Source: Nitrospirota bacterium (GTDB lineage: Bacteria > Nitrospirota > UBA9217). Taken from it: a stretch of 32,162 nucleotides of DNA. The notes beneath the pieces are model-generated. The model was not told where the DNA came from, did not search any database, and was given only the letters and a program-made list of their open reading frames with translations. The position numbers and the translations under genes were made by a program. This document shows, in pieces, positions 21,722 through 23,841 of this stretch. The stretch lies in assembly GCA_020052615.1 (NCBI GenBank), contig JAGVOT010000098.1, positions 1-32,162 on the forward strand, read 5' to 3'. Position 1 is the first letter of the stretch. Every line of letters starts with the position of its first letter.

Positions 21722-23494
<1,773 letters not shown>

Positions 23495-23653: not shown

Positions 23654-23673
23654 TCAGCAGTTTGAGGTCTATT

Positions 23674-23841
23674 ATGAAGTGCAAGGACTGCAGTAAGGAA
23701 GTGGTGCTCAAGATCGGCTGAAGGAAAGTCACCATGCGCTGCACGTCGTGCGGCAAGGAATTTCCGATCAAGGAGTACCTGGACGAGCTTGATGAAGCAA
23801 CGTGGGAGAAGATAGCCCTCCGTCCCAGCAACCGCGCATGA
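23674..23841 (+). CDS. Probable dual-CXXC small selenoprotein (in-frame UGA)
   Basis: ATG 23674 (TTGAGGT upstream) opens a 55-codon frame with one internal TGA at codon 16 (23719-23721) and a TGA stop at 23839. The protein reads MKCKDCSKEVVLKIG, then the UGA residue, then RKVTMRCTSCGKEFPIKEYLDEL and a WEKIALRPSNRA end (split here). CxxC pairs are at 3/6 and 23/26. From memory this matches the family named dual CXXC motif small (seleno)protein, where Cys-form members have Cys in place of the UGA residue followed by R-[RK]-V-x-x-R-C. A hairpin GCTGCAC-GTC-GTGCGGC (23738-23754), with a G-first loop 23 bases after the UGA, fits a bacterial SECIS. Both halves being conserved in frame argues against a pseudogene. 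Re-initiation at ATG 23734 is the alternative. No Sec machinery genes are in the window. Confidence 0.72.
23738..23754 (+). promoter_or_regulatory. Candidate bacterial SECIS hairpin
   Basis: GCUGCAC and GUGCGGC pair over seven positions (one G-U) around loop GUC. The loop starts 23 bases after the in-frame UGA, inside the 16-37 base window expected for SelB-recognised elements, and its first base is G. It overlaps codons of the second CxxC, so base choice may also reflect coding. Confidence 0.55.

Follow-up and report, generated by a model that had tools for sequence, protein, structure and literature searches.

The window analysed here, a stretch of 32,162 nucleotides from the genome of a Nitrospirota bacterium, contains a small reading frame that is interrupted at its sixteenth codon by a TGA, and the question is whether this codon terminates translation or is read as selenocysteine (Sec). 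The gene (23674..23841, forward strand) starts with the ATG at 23674 and ends with an ordinary TGA at 23839-23841. With the UGA of codon 16 (23719..23721, forward strand) written as U, translation gives the 55-residue product MKCKDCSKEVVLKIGURKVTMRCTSCGKEFPIKEYLDELDEATWEKIALRPSNRA, in which U16 lies between two CxxC motifs, at residues 3-6 (C3 and C6, 23680..23691) and 23-26 (C23 and C26, 23740..23751). A GAGG Shine-Dalgarno motif is placed at 23664..23667 of the same strand, 6 nt 5' of the ATG, and similar motifs are found 5' of the genes of several relatives from the same family. A 55-codon gene with a TGA at codon 16 between two CxxC motifs and with a ribosome site of its own had been proposed in a sequence-only reading of this DNA, and both proposals are borne out by the sequence and its translation.

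When the UGA is read as Cys, the protein matches NCBIfam model NF041197.2 with 67 bits (cut-off 40, E = 1e-18) over positions 1-52 of 53, and it carries the motif of this family, C3xxC6, U16 and C23xxC26, with Sec or Cys between the CxxC motifs. The family named in the sequence-only reading, the dual CXXC motif small (seleno)protein, was thus the correct one. In Pfam no family scored above its own cut-off for the 55-residue protein. Members of NF041197 have been described under the hypothetical protein name OS_HP3 and, in a separate deep-Sep prediction, as hypothetical protein DW (PMC13188914, PMC12013277, PMC9312934); a 2026 review assigns both names to NF041197 (PMC13188914). No function is given for the OS_HP3/DW family in the excerpts of these three papers. 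The window protein has in common with this family its length, both CxxC motifs, the position of Sec and the existence of Sec and Cys forms. The published examples named in the excerpt of PMC12013277 are from Desulfosarcina whereas the window member is from Nitrospirota, and no defining difference was found between them. The window gene is the Sec form of an already described, functionally uncharacterised family, and the member itself is new.

Relatives were collected in two sets, a first one of 99 relatives and a phylum set of 396 Nitrospirota genomes. For the search of genome contigs the first query alignment was too diverse and a tighter set was used instead; row 5 of this tighter alignment (A3) is a hand-typed consensus-like sequence which only seeded the pattern search. 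The named relatives are Nitrospirota/Nitrospirae MAGs, Thermodesulfovibrionales among them. In the first set a full-length copy was found in 27 genomes, all 27 with the UGA at the same place. The gene is present in 149 of the 396 Nitrospirota genomes, 143 with the UGA form (the count of the 'stops inside' listing; 50 distinct UGA genes were read letter by letter) and six without a UGA. All six UGA-free relatives (L063, L065, L071, L074, L087 and L088) have a Cys aligned exactly with the UGA, and the five positions C3, C6, U/C16, C23 and C26 are invariant in an alignment of 35 sequences.

These alignments bear directly on the two other ways in which codon 16 could be understood. It could be a true stop, as UGA is in translation table 11 and at 23839-23841, where the gene ends, leaving a 15-residue peptide or a pseudogene with the downstream match as a remnant. 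We consider this very improbable, given that the downstream protein is conserved in many families and that full-length members either fix the UGA or exchange it only for Cys; in a pseudogene other disruptions would moreover be expected. The case named beforehand as refuting, in which the two sides of the UGA are independent short proteins, was not found in any of the relatives. Alternatively, the UGA might be decoded as another amino acid, such as Trp by a changed code, or be passed by general readthrough, and a UGA that is open in many relatives would suit a code change as well. Yet the terminal UGA of the gene is a stop, at which the family model also ends, and since UGA is found both internally and as the stop of the same gene a simple change of the genetic code is no explanation. 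The UGA-free relatives, moreover, carry Cys in all six cases and not Trp. We consider this reading extremely improbable.

The machinery for Sec insertion, which the sequence-only reading had proposed to look for, is complete in the genome of the window (3.99 Mb, 98% complete). We identified selA (613 bits), selB (384 bits), selD (362 bits) and, on contig C50, the tRNA-Sec gene selC with a UCA anticodon (64 bits). Across the phylum set selB was found in 135 of the 143 genomes with the UGA form as against 38 of the 247 genomes without the gene (Fisher p 3e-58; the sequences in this and the other comparative tests are related, so that p-values overstate independence while the direction is clear). 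This association of the UGA form with selB counts both against a true stop and against another amino acid at codon 16. Absence of selB was noted in three of the six Cys-form genomes; it was also not found in eight UGA-form genomes, some of which are incomplete or fragmented.

Some further observations were made on these genes. The selD of the window's own genome (L010, contig C59) has an in-frame TGA, placing U27 in a CGU motif, so that by its sequence SelD is likely to be itself a selenoprotein. The same genome contains a second, divergent tRNA with a UCA anticodon that was called as tRNA-Sec (L015 1500-1594, C130:47997-48087, 53 bits); inspection by eye recognised no sel gene among the ORFs around it on C130. 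Several genomes of one family, f23 (G165, G179, G283, G285 and G357), have more than one full-length selB per genome.

A bacterial SECIS-like hairpin is located at 23738..23754 (forward strand), downstream of the UGA and overlapping the second CxxC motif. Its sequence, GCUGCAC-GUC-GUGCGGC, forms a 7-bp stem, 23738-23744 pairing with 23748-23754, and a GUC loop (23745-23747) of which the apical G is the first base; the spacer from the UGA is 23 nt. Folding in this way upheld the earlier proposal of a hairpin with a G-first loop 23 bases after the UGA, and the spacing and the G-first loop fall within the limits for bacterial SECIS elements stated in the excerpt of PMC13188914. Since Rfam at the gathering threshold gave no match in the window, the element was examined by direct tests. 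Conserved pairing was seen with RNAalifold and in pair counts, with almost no covariation and few compensatory base changes, as invariant Cys codons form part of the stem. As the pair counts were uninformative for this reason, and as whole-region folding gave weak z-scores for some members when compared with dinucleotide shuffles, a synonymous-recoding test was preferred. In this test the region was more stable than its synonymous recodings in all 50 UGA genes tested (mean z -2.6, p 9e-16), the window gene having a z of -2.79.

The codons themselves point in the same direction. All 20 relatives with an Arg at residue 22, which lies inside the hairpin, use CGC for it; among the other Arg codons of the same genes the share of CGC is 17%. 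In the Cys forms the hairpin is weaker than in the UGA forms (p 3e-4) and mostly lost, the loss being incomplete as L065 and L087 still fold better than their recoded versions. At codon 22, five of the six Cys forms have AGT or AAC and the remaining one has TGC; since these forms have no Arg at this position, Arg22 appears to be maintained to suit the RNA rather than the protein. Taken from sequence comparison, these results support the hairpin as having the properties of a SECIS element in a selenoprotein gene and as being selected at synonymous sites, and such selection argues further against a true stop at codon 16. For the AT-rich family f16 a shifted hairpin register and a larger loop are predicted. 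Among the f16 members L039-L047, except L041, residue 22 is Cys (TGC) in place of Arg (CGC), a single base change that accompanies the shifted register.

The reading frame, the interchange of Sec and Cys, the selection on the hairpin and the presence of the Sec machinery are all covered by this comparative evidence, according to which Sec is almost certainly inserted at codon 16 of a member of NF041197. Ribosomes would start at 23674, the hairpin directly downstream of the UGA would hold SelB with its Sec-tRNA-Sec so that Sec is put in at codon 16 without termination, and translation would end at the ordinary UGA at 23839.

What the protein does is less evident. An AlphaFold model (pLDDT 81) predicts a small beta unit followed by a C-terminal helix, and a fold search of the PDB gave no significant match (best E 0.34). 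Sequence and fold searches together returned only weak zinc-ribbon matches, including HypA and the zinc ribbons of RNA polymerase. With HypA and other zinc-ribbon proteins the window protein shares a pair of CxxC motifs within a small unit like a zinc ribbon, and its profile similarity to them is weak; unlike HypA, it is too short for the other part of that protein and has an invariant Sec between the CxxC motifs. Its identity as a HypA nickel metallochaperone was rejected because the scores are far below the family cut-offs (17 bits against 125 for the HypA profile and 13.9 against 28.9 for PF01155).

From the model and the conserved residues, we see about an even chance that this is a small metal-binding protein with a redox, metal-sensing or metal-handling role and with Sec near the metal site. 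The four Cys would form a zinc- or iron-binding site resembling a zinc ribbon, and the invariant Sec beside it could be a redox-active or metal-liganding selenolate. More specifically, and only tentatively, it may be a mini zinc ribbon in which the invariant Sec lies beside or ligates the four-Cys site and tunes it, as a selenolate, into a metal or redox sensor, while the SECIS element fixes Arg22 (CGC), which is freed upon the change from Sec to Cys. The small zinc-ribbon-like model and the weak resemblance to HypA and to the zinc ribbons of RNA polymerase would also suit a protein in which Sec is inserted without a catalytic or metal-ligand role and which serves mainly as a structural zinc-ribbon adaptor. 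This we regard as unlikely, since position 16 (Sec or Cys) varies no more than the four Cys do, and since 143 genomes retain the costly Sec as opposed to six with the Cys form, which suggests a chemical role.

The surroundings of the gene were also considered. The aspartyl-tRNA synthetase gene aspS, recognised by its domains, occupies 21722-23494 on the same strand, ending 179 nt 5' of the selenoprotein gene, and is found upstream in several relatives of the same family as well. Neighbours in other families include NYN_YacP, a CxxCxxCC-like gene and apparently S20 and purH, these last two identified by eye. The neighbourhood was rejected as a clue to function because the neighbouring genes differ between families. 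A scan of viral contigs and a tblastn search of plasmids gave no relatives of the window gene.

A relative from Desulfobotulus alkaliphilus (L062), whose genome has selB, resembles the window gene in its Sec-encoding UGA between the CxxC motifs and in its SECIS-like GCTGCACGGTGTGCGGC, and differs in having only 36% identity to the query used and a divergent C-terminal half.

For the described family, this analysis adds that it is widely distributed in Nitrospirota, that Sec forms far outnumber Cys forms in this phylum, and that there is codon-level evidence for the SECIS element. A tiny gene that gene callers easily miss occurs in more than one third of the Nitrospirota genomes sampled, with Sec in nearly all cases, and the Sec/Cys pairs, with most Cys forms devoid of the hairpin, offer natural comparisons for the role of Sec and for the effect of the SECIS element on the protein. 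One genome with a normal copy has in addition a divergent second UGA match (L051 1501-1617, CKYCGGKAIITGTUAKGKVRCLTCG), which possibly represents a paralogue family.
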